DNA from: an uncultured Prevotella sp.
GTDB lineage: Bacteria; Bacteroidota; Bacteroidia; Bacteroidales; Bacteroidaceae
Length of the DNA stretch: 21,818 nt
NCBI GenBank assembly: GCA_934230965.1
Contig: CAKQFW010000009.1
Location: forward strand, 1-21,818
Direction: 5' to 3'
In this document: piece by piece, positions 560 through 21,600 of the stretch
How positions within the stretch are numbered: the stretch's first letter is position 1
Layout: every line of letters starts with the position of its first letter
Notes under the pieces: model-generated
Seen by the model: the letters and a program-made list of their open reading frames with translations, nothing else
What the model was told of the DNA's origin: nothing
Database searches by the model: none
Made by a program: the position numbers and the translations under genes

Positions 560-724
560 AACAAAAACCTAAAAAAACCCGTATCTGTTTTCTGAGCCTT
601 CGGCTACGCCTTGCCTCCAGCCAGCACCTTTACGAGAGCAAGCTCTCGACAGGCCCCGGCTGAAGGTAAGGCAGTGACACTACGTGCCACTCAGAAAACA
701 AATACGGTGATAAACATAAAAAAC
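560..724 (-). repeat. Cloverleaf-like palindromic element, copy P1
   Basis: The element has an outer stem (586-596 with 690-700, 11 bp) enclosing three branches. Branch one is a gcc-ttc-ggc hairpin (596-604). Branch two is a long stem (608-622 with 658-672, 13 of 15 paired) capped by cgagagc-aa-gctctcg (633-648). Branch three is gtg-a-cac-tac-gtg-c-cac (674-690). The right end (704-723) is a perfect 20-bp inverted copy of 922-941. Copy P2 has the same layout in inverted orientation with different stem bases. Strand is set by the direction in which more imperfect pairs become G-U wobbles, which is tentative. Confidence 0.75.
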
Positions 725-741
725 ATTATATCAAGAAGATT

Positions 742-925
742 AGATTTAATTATGCAAAGGTTTAAGATTTAATTGATTAAAAGTTTAAGATTTACTTGTG
801 CAAAAGTTTAAGGTTTACTTGTGCAAAGGTCTAAGATTTAATTGATTAAAAGTTTAAGATTTAATTGTGCAAAGGTTTAAGATTTAATTGATTAAAAGTT
901 TAAGATTTGCTTGTGCAAAGGTTTT
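742..925 (+). repeat. Eight tandem 23-bp units of two alternating types
   Basis: Eight contiguous units of exactly 23 bp begin at 742, 765, 788, 811, 834, 857, 880 and 903. Each begins agattta or a close variant and most end gttta. Two versions exist: one has gattaaaa in the middle (units 2, 5, 7) and the other has gtgcaaag or a close variant (units 1, 3, 4, 6, 8). There are no unique spacers, so this is not a CRISPR array. It sits between the inverted elements P1 and P2. Confidence 0.9.
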
Positions 926-1085
926 TTATGTTTATCACCGTCGCTCATTTCGAGCGGCACGAAGTGTCGCTAATACGAGCCAGAGGCTGTACTGGGTGAG
1001 AGCTTGCTCTCGCCACGGTACAGCCTCTGGGTTGTATGTAAGCCGTAAGGCTCGAAATGAGCGATGGGGTTTTTATGGTTTTTGT
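921..1085 (+). repeat. Cloverleaf-like palindromic element, copy P2
   Basis: This is an inverted homologue of P1. The outer stem (942-955 with 1050-1063) is perfect over 14 bp. Inside lie a gcg-g-cac-gaa-gtg-t-cgc hairpin (954-970) and a perfect 13-bp stem (980-992 with 1018-1030) capped by gagagc-tt-gctctc (998-1011). The last branch is an agcc-gtaa-ggct hairpin (1041-1052). The imperfect pairs in the small hairpins are G-T on this strand, so an RNA from the plus strand would pair them as G-U. Confidence 0.75.
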
Positions 1086-1133
1086 CTAAAGATGAGGGGG
1101 GTTGACTATAAACGAACAAGAGGGGTGTTGGAG

Positions 1134-1188: not shown

Positions 1189-1959
1189 TTACAGGTAGAA
1201 GATGCCCTCGGGACCCTCGTTAAACAGCAGGTCGAGGATGCTGAGGTTGGGTAAGAAGCCGTGGCGTTGCGCGCGCACTTGATAATAAGGTGTGGGGTTG
1301 AAGTCGGCGTCGGGCAGTGGATGCTTCGGGCGTATTGCCTCGCGGAAGTCGACAAAGTCAGTAAGCGATTTATCTGTAAGAACGTCAGCACACACAGCCG
1401 CGTCATCCTCCGATGGCAACACGATATACTGTTCAGAGAGCTGCACTTGTGGCCGCACGTCGAGCAGCTGGCACATGGTGTGCATGATGTCGAGGTTGAG
1501 GTCGAAGAGGAAGGTGTGACGCTTCTCGAAGAAAGGTCGCAGGTCGTCGGCATAAAACTCGAAGAAGGGTGTCTCGCCGTATGCCGACACCAGCGCGTTC
1601 CAGTGCAGATGTCGCCAGTTGCCGTGGTCAGAGATACGAATATCGCGCATGGGGCATTTCGTGCCGTCGTATCGTTCTATGGGCACGGTGAGCGTCTGCG
1701 TACCGTTGGCCGTTGCTATGACGCATCGGTTGCGGTAGGTTTGCTTCACAAAGTGATCGTGCTGCTCAAGGATGCACGGCATACGATGCAACTTCTGGTA
1801 CCACTGAATGGGGCCGAAATAGGTGGAAGTAAGAAGGGCCCCACCCCCGCGCCGCGCGGAGCGCGGCTTCCCCCTCCCCTTATGGAGGGGAGTGATGTGC
1901 TTTGCTGCTTCTTCGTTTTCTCTATTTCCTATATCAATTGTATCTTTATTTTCAAGCAT
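1189..1959 (-). CDS. WbqC-like family protein with repeat-derived N-terminal extension
   Basis: The 256-residue protein matches the WbqC-like family by its start of domain (LLTSTYFGPIQWYQKL, about residues 42-57) and the later segments HWNALVSAYGETPFFEFY and FNPTPYYQVR. Family members are associated with surface polysaccharide loci and their biochemical role is poorly defined. It is the last gene of dapB-lepB-wbqC, 127 bp after lepB. No Met lies between residue 1 and the domain. The only usable ATG therefore forces reading through a palindromic repeat (1837-1893), which encodes about residues 23-41 (TPLHKGRGKPRSARRGGGA). Residues 1-22 are acidic and polar. The extension is unusual for the family. 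The product is probably cytoplasmic. Confidence 0.8.
   Translation of the reverse strand: MLENKDTIDIGNRENEEAAKHITPLHKGRGKPRSARRGGGALLTSTYFGPIQWYQKLHRMPCILEQHDHFVKQTYRNRCVIATANGTQTLTVPIERYDGTKCPMRDIRISDHGNWRHLHWNALVSAYGETPFFEFYADDLRPFFEKRHTFLFDLNLDIMHTMCQLLDVRPQVQLSEQYIVLPSEDDAAVCADVLTDKSLTDFVDFREAIRPKHPLPDADFNPTPYYQVRAQRHGFLPNLSILDLLFNEGPEGIFYL
1837..1893 (-). repeat. Double-hairpin GC repeat, copy B, inside a coding region
   Basis: This is an inverted copy of the 179-234 repeat, here read in frame near the 5' end of the WbqC-like gene. Its coding strand begins actcccctccataagggg and ends gcgggggtggggc. The 57-bp span is a multiple of three and holds no stop in the used frame. Confidence 0.85.
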
Positions 1960-3680: not shown

Positions 3681-3769
3681 ACTCCCCTCTCCCGCTCGAC
3701 CTTTGGTCGCTTGCTAGAGCAAGAACGGGGAGGGGGAAGCCGCGCAACGCGCGGTGCGGGGGTGGGGCT
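3681..3769 (+). repeat. Double-hairpin GC repeat, copy D, with enlarged first loop
   Basis: The outer parts match the other copies. The short ccataa loop of the first hairpin is replaced by about 30 bp holding two perfect small hairpins: cgacc-ttt-ggtcg (3697-3709) and cttgct-ag-agcaag (3710-3723). Its right end is 2 bp past the dapB stop codon. Confidence 0.8.
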
Positions 3770-3771
3770 TC

Positions 3772-4527
3772 TTAGAACTTAAACATATCTCCAATGGTCA
3801 GCAGTCCGCTATGCTCCTTCGTATATTCGGCTGCCAGCACGGCGCCTAAGGCGAAGCCTTTGCGCGAGTGAGCATCGTGTGTGATGGTGATGCTGTCGGC
3901 CTCCGAGTCGTACACCACGCTGTGTATGCCTGGCACCTCGTCGCGGCGTATGCTCTCAATGGCCAGCTGGTCGGCATTGCAGACGTTGGTGCCCGTCACG
4001 GTGCCGTCGGCATGTTGCTGCACACCCTTTACCCACGCGTGTTTGCGGTCGAGGCCATCAATAATCTCTTCGGCCAGTGTGATGGCGGTGCCGCTGGGGG
4101 CATCGAGCTTATGTATGTGGTGCGTTTCTTCCATGTGAACATCATACTGTGCAAAGCCGTTCATGATTTTGGCCAAATAGCGGTTTACGGCCGAGAAGAT
4201 GGCCACGCCGATAGAGAAGTTTGATGCCCAAAACAGTGTCTTGCCCTCGTCGGTACACATGCGGCGCACGTCGGCCTCGTGGTCTTTCATCCAACCTGTC
4301 GACCCGCTCACCACCTTCACGCCCGCCTTGAAGGCGCGCAGATAGTTGCCGTAAGCGGCTGTGGGCGACGTAAATTCGATGGCTACATCGGCCGAGGCGA
4401 AGGCCTCCGACTCGAAATCATCTTGGTTATCAACATCAATAATGCTCACAATGTTGTGGCCACGCTCGCGGGCTATCTGTTCTATCATCTTGCCCATCTT
4501 GCCGTAGCCTATCAATGCTATATTCAT
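3772..4527 (-). CDS. dapB: 4-hydroxy-tetrahydrodipicolinate reductase
   Basis: This cytoplasmic NAD(P)H-dependent enzyme reduces 4-hydroxy-tetrahydrodipicolinate to tetrahydrodipicolinate in the diaminopimelate/lysine pathway. The nucleotide-binding turn GYGKMG is at residues 7-12. EFTSPTA (51-57) and SGSTGW (74-79) line the cofactor pocket. EETHHIHKLDAPSGTA (133-148) holds the catalytic His/Lys pair and the substrate-binding loop. The length of 251 residues is normal. It is the first gene of the minus-strand set leading into lepB, an order often seen in Bacteroidales. A possible promoter box lies about 100 bp upstream. Confidence 0.97.
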   Translation of the reverse strand: MNIALIGYGKMGKMIEQIARERGHNIVSIIDVDNQDDFESEAFASADVAIEFTSPTAAYGNYLRAFKAGVKVVSGSTGWMKDHEADVRRMCTDEGKTLFWASNFSIGVAIFSAVNRYLAKIMNGFAQYDVHMEETHHIHKLDAPSGTAITLAEEIIDGLDRKHAWVKGVQQHADGTVTGTNVCNADQLAIESIRRDEVPGIHSVVYDSEADSITITHDAHSRKGFALGAVLAAEYTKEHSGLLTIGDMFKF

Positions 4528-9876: not shown

Positions 9877-9886
9877 CGACAATAAG

Positions 9887-9994
9887 ACCTATAAGCCCTA
9901 TAAGACCTATAAGCCCCATAAGCCCCACAAGCCCCACAAGCCCTATAAGCCCCATAAGCCCTATAGGACCTATAAGCCCCATAGCACCTATAAG
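9887..9994 (+). repeat. 9-bp tandem repeat, twelve units (consensus mcctataag)
   Basis: Twelve consecutive in-phase 9-bp units run from acctataag at 9887 to acctataag at 9986, with variants ccccataag and ccccacaag. They start 10 bp after the DUF2851 stop. The opposite strand reads as a meaningless GLIGLIGLM-type frame. Confidence 0.92.
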
Positions 9995-10031
9995 GCCATA
10001 ACCCCATACCCTCCCCAAAAAACAAAACAAT

Positions 10032-11419: not shown

Positions 11420-12406
11420 ATGAAAATAGGAAACATAGAATTTGGCCCCCACCCCATCTTCCTGGCTCCCATGGAAGACGTCACCGACATAGGCTTCCGC
11501 CTCTTGTGCAAACGCTATGGCGCCTCAATGGTCTACACCGAGTTTGTGAGCGCCGAAGCCCTCGTGCGCTCAATAAAATCTACCGTCAATAAGCTCACCA
11601 TCAGCGACGAAGAGCGCCCCGTAGGCATACAGATATACGGCCGCGACGTCGACGCCATGGTCGAAGCTGCCAAGATAGTAGAGCAAGCTCACCCCGACGT
11701 TATCGACCTCAACTTTGGCTGCCCTGTAAAGAAGGTGGCAGGCAAGGGTGCGGGCGCAGGCATGCTGCAAAACATACCCCTCATGCTCGAGATAACCGAA
11801 AAGGTGGTAAAGGCCGTAAACACACCCGTGACGGTGAAAACCCGACTGGGCTGGAGCGCCGACAACCTCGTTATCACCACGCTGGCCGAACAGCTGCAAG
11901 ACTGTGGCATACAGGCCCTCACCATTCATGGCCGCACAAGGGCTCAGATGTACACTGGCGAGGCCGACTGGACCCTCATAGGCGAGGTGAAACGCAACCC
12001 ACGCATACATATACCCATCATAGGCAATGGCGACATCACCACGCCCGAACAGGCCAAGGAGGCCTTCGACCGCTATGGCGTAGATGCCGTGATGGTGGGC
12101 CGCGCCACCTTTGGCCGCCCCTGGATTTTTAAGGAGATGCGCGACTATCTCGATGGTCTTCCCGCCGACCCCACTCTTGACCTCGACCACAAGATCGACA
12201 TCTTGGAAGAGCAGCTGCGCATCAACGTCGAGCGCATTGACGAGTATCGTGGCATCTTGCACACACGCCGCCATCTGGCCGCCTCGCCCATCTTCAAAGG
12301 CATACCCGACTTCCGCCAAACACGCATCGCCATGCTGCGCGCCGAAACAGTGCAAGACCTAACACAAATTTTGGAAGACTGCCGCGTAAGGCTTAAAGGC
12401 TTATAA
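11420..12406 (+). CDS. dusB: tRNA-dihydrouridine synthase, DusB-like
   Basis: This FMN enzyme reduces uridine to dihydrouridine in tRNA D-loops. The protein (328 residues) is a TIM barrel followed by a helical domain. LAPMEDVTDIGFR (15-27) binds FMN. DLNFGCPVKKVAGKGAG (96-112) contains the catalytic Cys101. TVKTRLGW, IHGRTRAQMYTG and IGNGDI...VMVGRATFGRPW are the remaining cofactor and substrate motifs. The length and all key residues are normal. It lies 92 bp after dprA and is followed by 9-bp repeats starting 8 bp after its stop. Confidence 0.95.
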   Translation: MKIGNIEFGPHPIFLAPMEDVTDIGFRLLCKRYGASMVYTEFVSAEALVRSIKSTVNKLTISDEERPVGIQIYGRDVDAMVEAAKIVEQAHPDVIDLNFGCPVKKVAGKGAGAGMLQNIPLMLEITEKVVKAVNTPVTVKTRLGWSADNLVITTLAEQLQDCGIQALTIHGRTRAQMYTGEADWTLIGEVKRNPRIHIPIIGNGDITTPEQAKEAFDRYGVDAVMVGRATFGRPWIFKEMRDYLDGLPADPTLDLDHKIDILEEQLRINVERIDEYRGILHTRRHLAASPIFKGIPDFRQTRIAMLRAETVQDLTQILEDCRVRLKGL

Positions 12407-12414
12407 GGGATAAA

Positions 12415-12477
12415 AGCTATAAGGCCTATAAGTCCTATAAGACCTATAAGACCCATAAAACCCATAAGCCCCACAAG
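12415..12477 (+). repeat. 9-bp tandem repeat, seven units
   Basis: In-phase units agctataag, gcctataag, tcctataag, acctataag, acccataaa, acccataag and ccccacaag follow the dusB stop. They belong to the same family and orientation as 9887-9994. Confidence 0.88.
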
Positions 12478-12509
12478 CCCACAACCGTAAAAAAATATTA
12501 AAAGGAAGC

Positions 12510-19710: not shown

Positions 19711-19776
19711 TTTTTTAGTTGACGAGTTGACAAGTTGACGAGTTGACAAGAACTTGTCTACTCGTCAACTTAAAAA
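19711..19776. repeat. 8-bp ttgacrag repeats with long hairpin
   Basis: Four 8-bp units (ttgacgag/ttgacaag) start at 19719. The last two form a hairpin with 18-nt arms (19733-19750 and 19753-19770, one T-T mismatch, loop aa). A T-run precedes the repeats and an A-run follows the hairpin. It fills the 72-bp spacer between two minus-strand genes. Confidence 0.8.
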
Positions 19777-19778
19777 AA

Positions 19779-21509
19779 CTATTTCACCACCTTCTTACCA
19801 TTCACGATAACGATGCCACGGTAGGCGTCGTTTACGCGCTGGCCCTGAAGGTTATACATATACTTCTGTGCAGCGGGCTTCTGAGCCTGTACACCAGCAA
19901 TACCAGTGGTATTGGCAAAAGCGTCGAAGGCGCCAGGGCAGTAGTCGGCATCGTCGTTGGCGTTACGCTTGGCACCCGTCTGGTCAACGGTTAGGTCGGG
20001 CACCTTGTAGCCAGTGGTGGCAAACAGAGGCTCGGTAGCCAACTGTGCAGCATAGGTGTTTACGTCGGCTACGTAAGGAGGATAAAACTCTTGTGCGGCC
20101 AAACCCTCAATATAGGTTTTGTTGGGCACAAGCACTTTGTCAGCGCTGGCGTTGATATCTTGCTCGCCAAAGAGGGCAGCAAAGGTGTTGGCAGCCTGCA
20201 TCGAATTGGTGGTACCCAGTTTGATGTAGCTCCACTTGTCGGCCTCAATCAATGGGAGGCATGAACCCGTAATGTTGAAGTTTTCAAACTCGCAACGCGG
20301 TTCAAACAAAGGTGCTGCCTCGCCCTTAGCAGCGTCTTTCATCACGATAGGTGCATAAGCCACGGTGCCATCGTCGGTACGTCCTACAACGATTGAGTTG
20401 TACATGTTAAAGTTGGCATCGGCAGCAATACGTAGGTCGGTACCTACCAGCGAACCTGGATTGGTAACCTCACCCGTCTCGGCATCGGTCTTATACAGCT
20501 CGGTGGGGTCGGCGGTACAGGTATTGCCCGCGATGGTAGAGTTGATAATATGTAGCTTACGTGTAGCGTTCTTGTCGCCATTGGCCACTACGCCACCGCC
20601 TTCGGCATAAGAGGTGTTGCCCGACACGGTACTGTTAATGATATACATCTCGCCAGCGGTAAGGGCTATGGCAGCGCCGTGGCGGTCGTCGAGGGTATTG
20701 TTATAGAAGGCGCAACGTTCAACAGTGCCACGCGAATAACGAATGTCGGTATTAATGTTTACACGCAAGGCGGCACCCGTTTGCACAGCGTGGTTGTTAT
20801 AGAAGCGGCAGTCGCGCAAGTTATACAGCGAGCCATACACGCTCATGCCCGATGCTTTGGCGGCATAGGTGTCGTGCACATCGCAGTTATACAGTTCGAG
20901 CCAGCCCTGCACAACGCTCAGGGCTCCCCAGCCCGTCATGGCATCGGCGGCCTCGCTGCTGGGCCACTCGCTCTCGTTATAGGCACACTTAAACTCGAAG
21001 CCGTGGAAGGTGAGAGGCTTCAGCGACGCATCGCTCACGGTGTAACGATCGTCGGCTGTATTCATGCCCTTCGAGCCCAGACGCATATTTACCAAGCAAC
21101 GGGCGTCGCCAGGCGATGCTACACCGTCGGCATTAAGGTCGCCAGAGAAGATAGTGGGAGTGGCCGATGGATAGGTGGGCCATGTGGTTATAGGGCCTTG
21201 TGTGGGGTCGCAACCACCTACAAAGATGTAGCCACGGTAGATGCGCTGTGCCACACCGCCAGCCTCAAGGGTGGGATAATAGGTACCGCCAGCAAAGAAG
21301 AACACGTCGCCGTTCTTATACTTCGAGTCGGCCTCTTTCTTCTTGGCCACGGCCTCGTTTTGGTAGATATCCCAAATGGTGAGGGCCTTGTCCCATGACG
21401 AGCCGTCGTTGCCAGTAGCGGCATTACCAGGCTTTACATAATAATCGGTTGCCATAACATTGGCTGAAGCAGCAACGGCTGCGGTAAGTAGTAAACCTTT
21501 TAGTTTCAT
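19779..21509 (-). CDS. Secreted right-handed beta-helix protein (choice-of-anchor Q type) with C-terminal tail
   Basis: This 576-residue protein has a signal peptide (cleavage after VMA, residue 20). It starts TDYYVKPGNAATGNDGSSWDKAL and continues DVFFFAGGTYYPT, the usual opening of Bacteroidetes beta-helix proteins. Later turns repeat the pattern C.FYNN (CRFYNNHAV, CAFYNNTLD, NSTVSGNTS, NSTIAGNTC), typical of pectate-lyase-like helices. DQTGAKRN...YCPGAFDA near the end matches the closing segment of choice-of-anchor Q proteins. The last 26 residues (YNLQGQRV ... YRGIVIVNGKK) are nearly identical to those of the downstream nuclease fusion. It may bind or process polysaccharide or act as an adhesin; no catalytic residues can be named. 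The flanking spacers both carry ttgacgag repeats. Confidence 0.85.
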   Translation of the reverse strand: MKLKGLLLTAAVAASANVMATDYYVKPGNAATGNDGSSWDKALTIWDIYQNEAVAKKKEADSKYKNGDVFFFAGGTYYPTLEAGGVAQRIYRGYIFVGGCDPTQGPITTWPTYPSATPTIFSGDLNADGVASPGDARCLVNMRLGSKGMNTADDRYTVSDASLKPLTFHGFEFKCAYNESEWPSSEAADAMTGWGALSVVQGWLELYNCDVHDTYAAKASGMSVYGSLYNLRDCRFYNNHAVQTGAALRVNINTDIRYSRGTVERCAFYNNTLDDRHGAAIALTAGEMYIINSTVSGNTSYAEGGGVVANGDKNATRKLHIINSTIAGNTCTADPTELYKTDAETGEVTNPGSLVGTDLRIAADANFNMYNSIVVGRTDDGTVAYAPIVMKDAAKGEAAPLFEPRCEFENFNITGSCLPLIEADKWSYIKLGTTNSMQAANTFAALFGEQDINASADKVLVPNKTYIEGLAAQEFYPPYVADVNTYAAQLATEPLFATTGYKVPDLTVDQTGAKRNANDDADYCPGAFDAFANTTGIAGVQAQKPAAQKYMYNLQGQRVNDAYRGIVIVNGKKVVK

Positions 21510-21540
21510 TGCAATGAATATTTAAATGGTTAATATTTTT

Positions 21541-21600
21541 AGTTGACGAGTTGACAAGTTGACGAGTTGACGAGCTGTTTGCTTGCCTAAGTTGACAAGG
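21541..21600. repeat. 8-bp ttgacrag repeats, second copy
   Basis: Four units of ttgacgag/ttgacaag begin at 21543, then an isolated ttgacaag sits near 21592. This matches the repeat at 19711-19776 and likewise lies directly upstream of a secreted-protein gene on the minus strand. Confidence 0.8.

Follow-up and report, generated by a model that had tools for sequence, protein, structure and literature searches.

What is the inverted pair of cloverleaf-like sequences that occupies positions 560 to 1085 of a 21,818-nucleotide stretch of DNA from an uncultured Prevotella sp. (the whole stretch is referred to below as the window), and how have its stems come to differ in sequence while remaining paired? 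A preliminary description, made from the letters alone, had likened the two sequences, P1 and P2, to a pair of BIME/REPIN-type mobile palindromes with compensatory stem changes and a hint of RNA.

Results

Architecture of the element

P1 and P2 are not two copies of one palindrome but the inverted left and right halves of a single element (560–1086), which lies directly downstream of a wbqC-like gene (1189–1959, minus strand; Pfam WbqC). The element is bounded by the terminal inverted repeats (TIRs) GGGGTTTTTATGGTTTTTGTC, and its middle stem encloses an array of 23-bp repeats: the inner ends of the halves (704–724 and 921–941) form an additional 21-bp inverted repeat, part of inverted repeat I4, around the array (742–924). 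Outward-facing inverted outer boxes of the form GGTTTTTNNGGTTTTTGTY are present in the window at 560–579 (minus) and 1068–1086 (plus), with at most two errors. The parts are as follows.

560–1086: whole element, comprising the TIRs, two inverted cloverleaf halves, the middle stem and the tandem-repeat core
560–580, minus: left TIR (outer box), aACAAAAACCTAAAAAAACCC; the TIR motif, a consensus from other genomes, matches 560–579 with mismatches allowed
579–707, minus: left cloverleaf half (P1), from the minus-strand fold; outer stem 579–594 with 692–707
673–691, minus: arm A of the left half (8 bp, 3-nt loop), from the fold
608–672, minus: arm B of the left half (65 nt, GAGAGCTTGCTCTC tip), from the fold
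595–605, minus: arm C of the left half, from the fold
704–724, minus: left inner box, one arm of the middle stem (inverted repeat I4)
742–924, plus: core of about eight 23-bp tandem repeats, the last bases of which overlap the right inner box
921–941, plus: right inner box, the other arm of the middle stem (inverted repeat I4)
938–1067, plus: right cloverleaf half (P2), from the plus-strand fold; outer stem 938–952 with 1053–1067
953–971, plus: arm A of the right half, from the fold
973–1037, plus: arm B of the right half (65 nt), from the fold
1041–1052, plus: arm C of the right half, from the fold
1066–1086, plus: right TIR (outer box), GGGGTTTTTATGGTTTTTGTC, from the motif match and comparison with relatives

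No open reading frame (ORF) of 80 or more amino acids lies wholly within 560–1086, and the core consists of the 23-bp array; thus, the window element is a gene-less derivative. The full-length version has a GxxExxY gene between its halves (see below), and no such gene is present there in the window.

The window holds other repeats as well. A 22-bp tandem repeat (GGTTTTAGGATGTGAAACCAAG, 3.3 copies) lies upstream of the element (258–329). GC-rich, REP-like palindromic repeats, CCCCTCC...GGGGAGGGG around GCCGCGC...GCGCGGC, occur near gene ends on both strands (181–233, 1838–1903, 2018–2087, 3727–3774). Two plus-strand ORFs are each followed by an array of 9-bp units (ATAAGCCCT / ATAAGACCC), the two arrays being oriented alike (9882–10008, 12387–12481), and partly inverted arrays of 8-bp units (AGTTGACG; 19717–19775, 21536–21574) flank a 576-aa ORF (19779–21509).

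Fold and selection on structure

Both halves fold as initially described, far better than expected from their composition (MFE z from 200 dinucleotide shuffles: P1 −8.8 on the plus and −10.3 on the minus strand; P2 −12.3 on the plus and −10.1 on the minus strand), and none of the 200 shuffles folded as well as P1 or P2 on either strand. The best folds of the P1 minus and P2 plus strands follow a common plan, an outer stem (16 and 15 bp, respectively) with three arms, A (19 nt in both), B (65 nt in both) and C (11 and 12 nt). When P1 is compared with reverse-complemented P2, the ends, several loops and the junctions are in common, whereas most of the stem letters differ and still pair, as had been noted, and the G-T pairs reported on the P2 plus strand recur in the fold. 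In keeping with the earlier failure to recognize a known family, Rfam 15 gave no matches in the window at the gathering score.

To recover the structure independently of the window, a covariance model (R1) was built from a subfamily alignment of halves from relatives, A4, that contains no window sequence and includes the outer box. In a search of 395 kb, R1 matched the right half at 938–1086 on the plus strand (42.9 bits, E = 1.4e-6) and the left half at 560–707 on the minus strand (34.6 bits, E = 8.1e-5), these E-values being rough.

Among 155 distinct foldable halves, 112 have an outer stem with exactly three branches, typically of about 11–18 nt (A), 61–68 nt (B) and 9–18 nt (C); the remaining 43 comprise 25 without a closed stem, 13 with two branches and 5 with more than three. 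Three branches of any size also arise in 74 of 465 dinucleotide shuffles, whereas a strict three-arm definition, with size limits on the stem and the arms, is satisfied by 100 of the 155 halves and by 1 of the 465 shuffles.

Covariation was analyzed in two subfamily alignments from half clusters thinned at 95% identity, A4 (17 of the 18 rows in the cluster; L164 was omitted) and A3 (23 rows). Paired cells make up 95.8% in A4 and 95.3% in A3, compared to 28–53% for slid structures, a comparison that favors the tested structures because they derive from the same alignments. Cells in which both partners have changed are far more frequent than in shuffled alignments (56 vs. 17.4 in A4 and 74 vs. 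26.7 in A3; 0 of 500 shuffles in each case). Of the five covariation measures, one (how many further pair types occur) was no higher than in the shuffles for either A4 or A3. The outer stem that RNAalifold proposed for A3 was wrongly placed onto the outer box and was left out of the A3 count. These observations bear out the proposal that the secondary structure is selected, and the selection acts across the whole half rather than on the box alone.

Mismatches in the stems are biased by strand. In Watson-Crick-only folds of the outward strand of 74 halves (thinned at 80% identity), G.T exceeds A.C (27 vs. 7) and G.A exceeds C.T (52 vs. 3), and a similar bias results when the other strand is folded (G.T 29, A.C 8, G.A 67, C.T 2). 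Counted by half, G.T is more frequent than A.C in 17, less frequent in 3 and equally frequent in 54 (p = 0.0026). The presence of this bias on the outward strand of both halves argues for selection on a single-stranded nucleic acid, DNA or RNA, being compatible with either and unable to separate them. Thus, the strand asymmetry behind the earlier hint of RNA is real; however, the outward strands of the two halves are opposite strands of the genome, a pattern that fits strand-specific single-stranded DNA no less well than it fits RNA.

A repeat family in relatives

The window feature belongs, as a member without a gene, to a repeat family that has multiple copies in Prevotella-type genomes. Relatives were reached via the wbqC gene and via genome searches, and copies were counted in these relatives, not in the window's own genome. 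A search of 398 genomes with P2 yielded matches in at least 23; because two candidates were scored per genome, the counts are lower bounds. Most of the places matched by P2 (27 of 32) fall on the outer end, GGGGTTTTTATGGTTTTTGTC, or its neighborhood. The outer-box motif had 137 matches in 23 genomes, 19 of them preselected by a P2 match and four added, compared to 8 for a reversed-pattern control, with a maximum of 25 per genome. At the level of the order, the exact outer-box pattern was found in 8 of 393 genomes, 7 of them once, and the reversed control in 9 genomes once each; since the pattern does not exceed the control outside one genome (G106), our claim for the family is limited to the genus.

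Other searches found little. A preliminary DNA search of 10 genomes gave a single weak match, a short-word search of 80 wbqC loci recovered no element (weak matches in L072 and L035 appeared coding by eye), and blastn of 540–1110 against plasmids and phages gave no match. A pattern scan of IMG/VR returned two matches to the AT-rich inner flank, in which no cloverleaf was apparent by eye, and these were rejected.

An inverted second copy of the outer end completes the pair in 13 of the 30 loci L084–L113, the whole pair spanning 308–435 bp; in all 13, a middle stem is present and both ends contain internal structure. A listing restricted to outward pairs gave 43 of them, 228–611 bp long and a few with an end in common, across the window and 80 further loci. 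With all orientations admitted, 44 of 52 neighboring outer boxes at most 900 bp apart face outward, 4 face inward and 4 point the same way; in the cases read, the inner ends also match between the halves. These two results, together with the spacing of the pairs, leave a negligible probability that the halves are separate small palindromic repeats that became inverted neighbors by chance in the manner of BIMEs, even though single halves exist and eight 5019-bp loci (L144, L160, L161, L164, L172, L174, L189, L214) have R1 matches at one place only.

None of the 40 pairs with placed flanking genes lies within an ORF; the flanking genes are in tandem for 21, convergent for 13 and divergent for 6. 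Many elements occupy orthologous places, which indicates that any movement is slow. Several assembly contigs (L207–L211 and others) end about 50–170 bp inside an element, and draft genomes therefore probably yield copy numbers that are too low.

The associated candidate nuclease gene

Among clustered ORFs flanking the elements, the commonest family, in 7 of 81 sources, is GxxExxY, which is not a known transposase; in 7 loci, a GxxExxY ORF lies within or beside an element. The element ORFs belong to this family (TIGR04256 / PF13366; PDDEXK_3, PD-(D/E)XK-like): against a curated cut-off of 35, three full-length ORFs score 112.6, 96.6 and 102.2 bits and a partial ORF scores 43.8. The putative active-site positions E43, D83, E93-x-K95 and Q107 are invariant in 56 GxxExxY sequences. 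For one gene pair, dN is 0.042 vs. a dS of 0.98. A kinship of GxxExxY with Holliday resolvases was considered and is not established (T7 endonuclease I, E = 0.19–0.27; Hjc by Foldseek, E = 0.058).

In a tree of 53 of the 64 GxxExxY sequences (the rest include partial, broken and profile-missed ones), the 11 proteins with boxes within 700 bp form one clade (support 88/88; 0 of 500 shuffles). The clade nuclease has 147 residues (in L147), and in L096 its TAG stop codon lies within the inner box, directly before a half. Boxes and intact genes do not always coincide: G117 has 20 box matches and only truncated clade-like nucleases, and G351 has a clade nuclease and no box at one mismatch.

Inverted flanks are common across the family. 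GxxExxY genes lie between inverted repeats in 32 of 53 cases at E ≤ 1e-4, compared to 4 among 400 controls sampled from a pool of 506 ORFs (Fisher p about 1e-30). Three of these four controls were inspected, and they comprise two TIGR02436 four-helix-bundle genes and one dapB-like gene. Across the phylum, 14 of 27 have inverted flanks at E ≤ 1e-2 and 6 of 27 at E ≤ 1e-4 (29 loci), a weaker signal for which there was no separate control. Of 118 Bacteroidota genomes sampled, 59 contain the family. In the sister-clade loci L271 and L272, three-arm structures are visible by eye with other outer boxes, and R1 gave no match there. Most members examined have inverted flanks of a different, array-type kind. 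Inverted arrays of short units (CACAGAT, CACGGAT, ACAGAATT, CATTAATT, AGACTATAG) surround many of these other genes (L224–L253), the units differing between loci; no GxxExxY gene had any of the tried unit patterns of the window arrays within 500 bp.

As a separate observation, TIGR02436 four-helix-bundle genes, presumably of the S23 family, lie between inverted repeats (23–24 bp, 100% identical) at L065:4130–4516 and L073:4221–4613, and may represent another selfish small gene with inverted-repeat flanks.

Occupied and empty sites

Copies with empty flanking sites in relatives, which the preliminary description had suggested looking for, do exist. We searched eight flank joins covering seven elements of genome G199, the aligned stretches of which are about 85–95% (mostly >90%) identical to those of G106. 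At three of the seven sites, one species has the element and another lacks it: elements L151:5979–6253 and L153 are absent from G106 and G117, and element L150 is absent from G117 and, in two pieces, from G106. The three empty sites hold other short sequence, and the intergenic flanks of occupied and empty sites are too diverged for a target-site duplication to be read. The sites of L149:3252–3693 (with a box at the contig end) and L148 are also occupied in G106. At the L148 site, G199 carries a gene-less 414-bp element and G106 an element with an intact GxxExxY gene; in the latter, the right outer box was not found and a right cloverleaf was not seen by eye. At one site (L283), G106 carries an array of the 9-bp type, like those of the window, where G199 has a cloverleaf element.

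At one common site (L147 in G199, L158 in G106), whole cassettes have been replaced. Identity there is 92% and 90% in the flanking genes, 98.6% (438/444) in the nuclease gene, 97–98% in the inner parts and 89–95% in the outer boxes, but just 50% and 41% in the two cloverleaves, which have been replaced from box to box. The nuclease genes of this pair (dN 0.014, dS 0.012) are too similar to show purifying selection. By half type, L147 is II + II, and L158 is IV + III, as is L194 from the more distant genome G376; judging from these types, it was most likely G199 in which both halves changed. Thus, the compensatory change proposed for P1 and P2 is real inside subfamilies but does not appear to be the whole cause of the stem differences, given that entire cloverleaves were exchanged between fixed boxes at this site, the one aligned letter by letter. 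Pairs with two halves of the same type were fewer than expected (2 of 24 fully typed pairs vs. 5.8; one-sided p = 0.048, with 19 of the 43 pairs not fully typed), which is only suggestive of homotypic avoidance between the halves of a pair.

Discussion

The mobile, REPIN-like character initially attributed to this locus fits the multiple copies in relatives, the presence or absence of elements between species and the existence of a candidate cognate enzyme. We consider the following explanation to be probable. Each element consists of two inverted halves, and each half is a cloverleaf of about 125 nt, a four-way junction, between an inner and an outer box of the GGTTTTT type, and structural selection acts on its outward-reading strand. 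The cognate enzyme would most likely be the GxxExxY (PDDEXK_3) nuclease of the box-associated clade, the genes of which lie beside or between the halves. The nuclease would recognize the folded half by its shape, as single-stranded or extruded DNA, and would cut at the junction or at the boxes; repair, or copying of another element, would then multiply the elements and put new cloverleaf cassettes between boxes that stay conserved.

The principal alternative, which appears unlikely, places the function at the RNA level: outward transcription of each half would yield a structured RNA, either on its own or as the 3' UTR of the message for the nuclease, and the GxxExxY protein would bind this RNA or be guided by it. 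In TnpB and IscB genes, RNA from the 3' end of the gene serves as such a bound or guide RNA, and the covariation, the bias of G.T and G.A mismatches to one strand and the L096 stop codon inside the inner box are all in line with this possibility. However, because the halves are biased on opposite strands, a single transcript has one of them in the wrong sense; moreover, both halves are kept in gene-less elements, and the Rfam search was negative.

It is rather improbable that the element is an ordinary MITE moved by a conventional transposase that escaped notice and acts on the TIRs, with the cloverleaves and the nuclease gene as passengers. Features that MITEs usually have are the TIRs, the gene-less copies and the intergenic positions; in addition, the halves differ while the outer box is conserved. 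Against this stand the prevalence of GxxExxY among the flanking ORFs, the confinement of the box-associated members to one clade, the selection of structure over the whole half and the failure to see a target-site duplication, although the flanks compared had diverged.

Still more doubtful is domestication by the host, whereby immobile elements (bidirectional terminators, insulators or sites for nucleoid proteins) would be kept by selection on nearby genes. The exclusion of placed pairs from ORFs, the excess of convergent and tandem over divergent flanks, the many orthologous positions and the T-rich outer boxes that come after paired stems could all be read in this way, but such elements would hardly be missing from their sites in close relatives, change their half types at a common site or, in some cases, carry a nuclease gene, and a terminator needs neither a 65-nt arm B nor a four-way junction.

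Relation to known systems

The window element has the TIRs, the lack of a gene and the several intergenic copies (counted in relatives) that characterize MITEs. It resembles BrickBuilt, a MITE of Porphyromonas gingivalis that, according to the accessible part of its description, is likewise intergenic, gene-less and bounded by TIRs and has a core of 23-nt tandem repeats (PMC4596501). However, the TIRs of BrickBuilt (GAGACCTTTGCA) resemble IS5-type ISPg elements, and that part of the description mentions neither cloverleaf ends nor a GxxExxY gene (PMC4596501).

The IS200/IS605 elements are small, with a subterminal structure that is read on one strand and a nuclease gene followed by a structured end. 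The cloverleaf elements share the small size, the structured end on one strand and the order of nuclease gene and structured end, but have two inverted structured ends, and TnpA, TnpB and IscB were not seen in the loci read. The intervening sequences of 23S rRNA, as far as the excerpted account goes, are also selfish units with a small ORF; however, their S23 protein is a different one, and the units reside at an rRNA site and are excised by RNase III (PMC4990558).

The closest parallel is with REPIN/RAYT, in which, in the portions of the reports available, an enzyme clade is paired with its repeat, and many intergenic copies accompany few enzyme genes (PMC8049555, PMC3733652). The cloverleaf family, too, has an inverted pair of strand-specific structured ends, many gene-less intergenic copies and few enzyme genes, slow vertical persistence and an enzyme clade paired with the repeat. 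In contrast, the candidate enzyme is PD-(D/E)XK-like and RAYT is an HUH tyrosine transposase (TnpA-REP); the halves are three-arm four-way junctions of about 125 nt and REPs are GTAG-tagged palindromes of 20–40 bp; and here whole halves are exchanged at one site. These differences in enzyme fold and repeat place the cloverleaf system outside REPIN/RAYT.

A broader proposal, plausible but put forward tentatively, is that a second class of REPIN/RAYT-like intragenomic repeats, unrelated to the first and widespread in Bacteroidota, has GxxExxY proteins as its enzymes, each clade with inverted flanks of its own; in the clade analyzed here, the shape of the four-way junction rather than its sequence would be read, so that cassettes exchange wholesale and the sequence of the ends is free to vary. 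No description of such a system was found among the matches listed in the literature searched, which did not extend to preprints and most subscription journals, and the accessible literature on the GxxExxY family gives no function for it.

If the nuclease is not the mover, the finding reduces to a variant of a MITE. If it is, GxxExxY, present in half of the sampled Bacteroidota genomes, would gain its first role, and with a second system, based on an enzyme of another fold, one could ask what is general about such repeat populations. The element looks like a new kind of mobile DNA that is recognized by shape and can swap its ends, as cassettes, for unrelated sequences of the same shape while the architecture is kept; cassette replacement would then be a natural explanation for the turnover of stems with pairing preserved.
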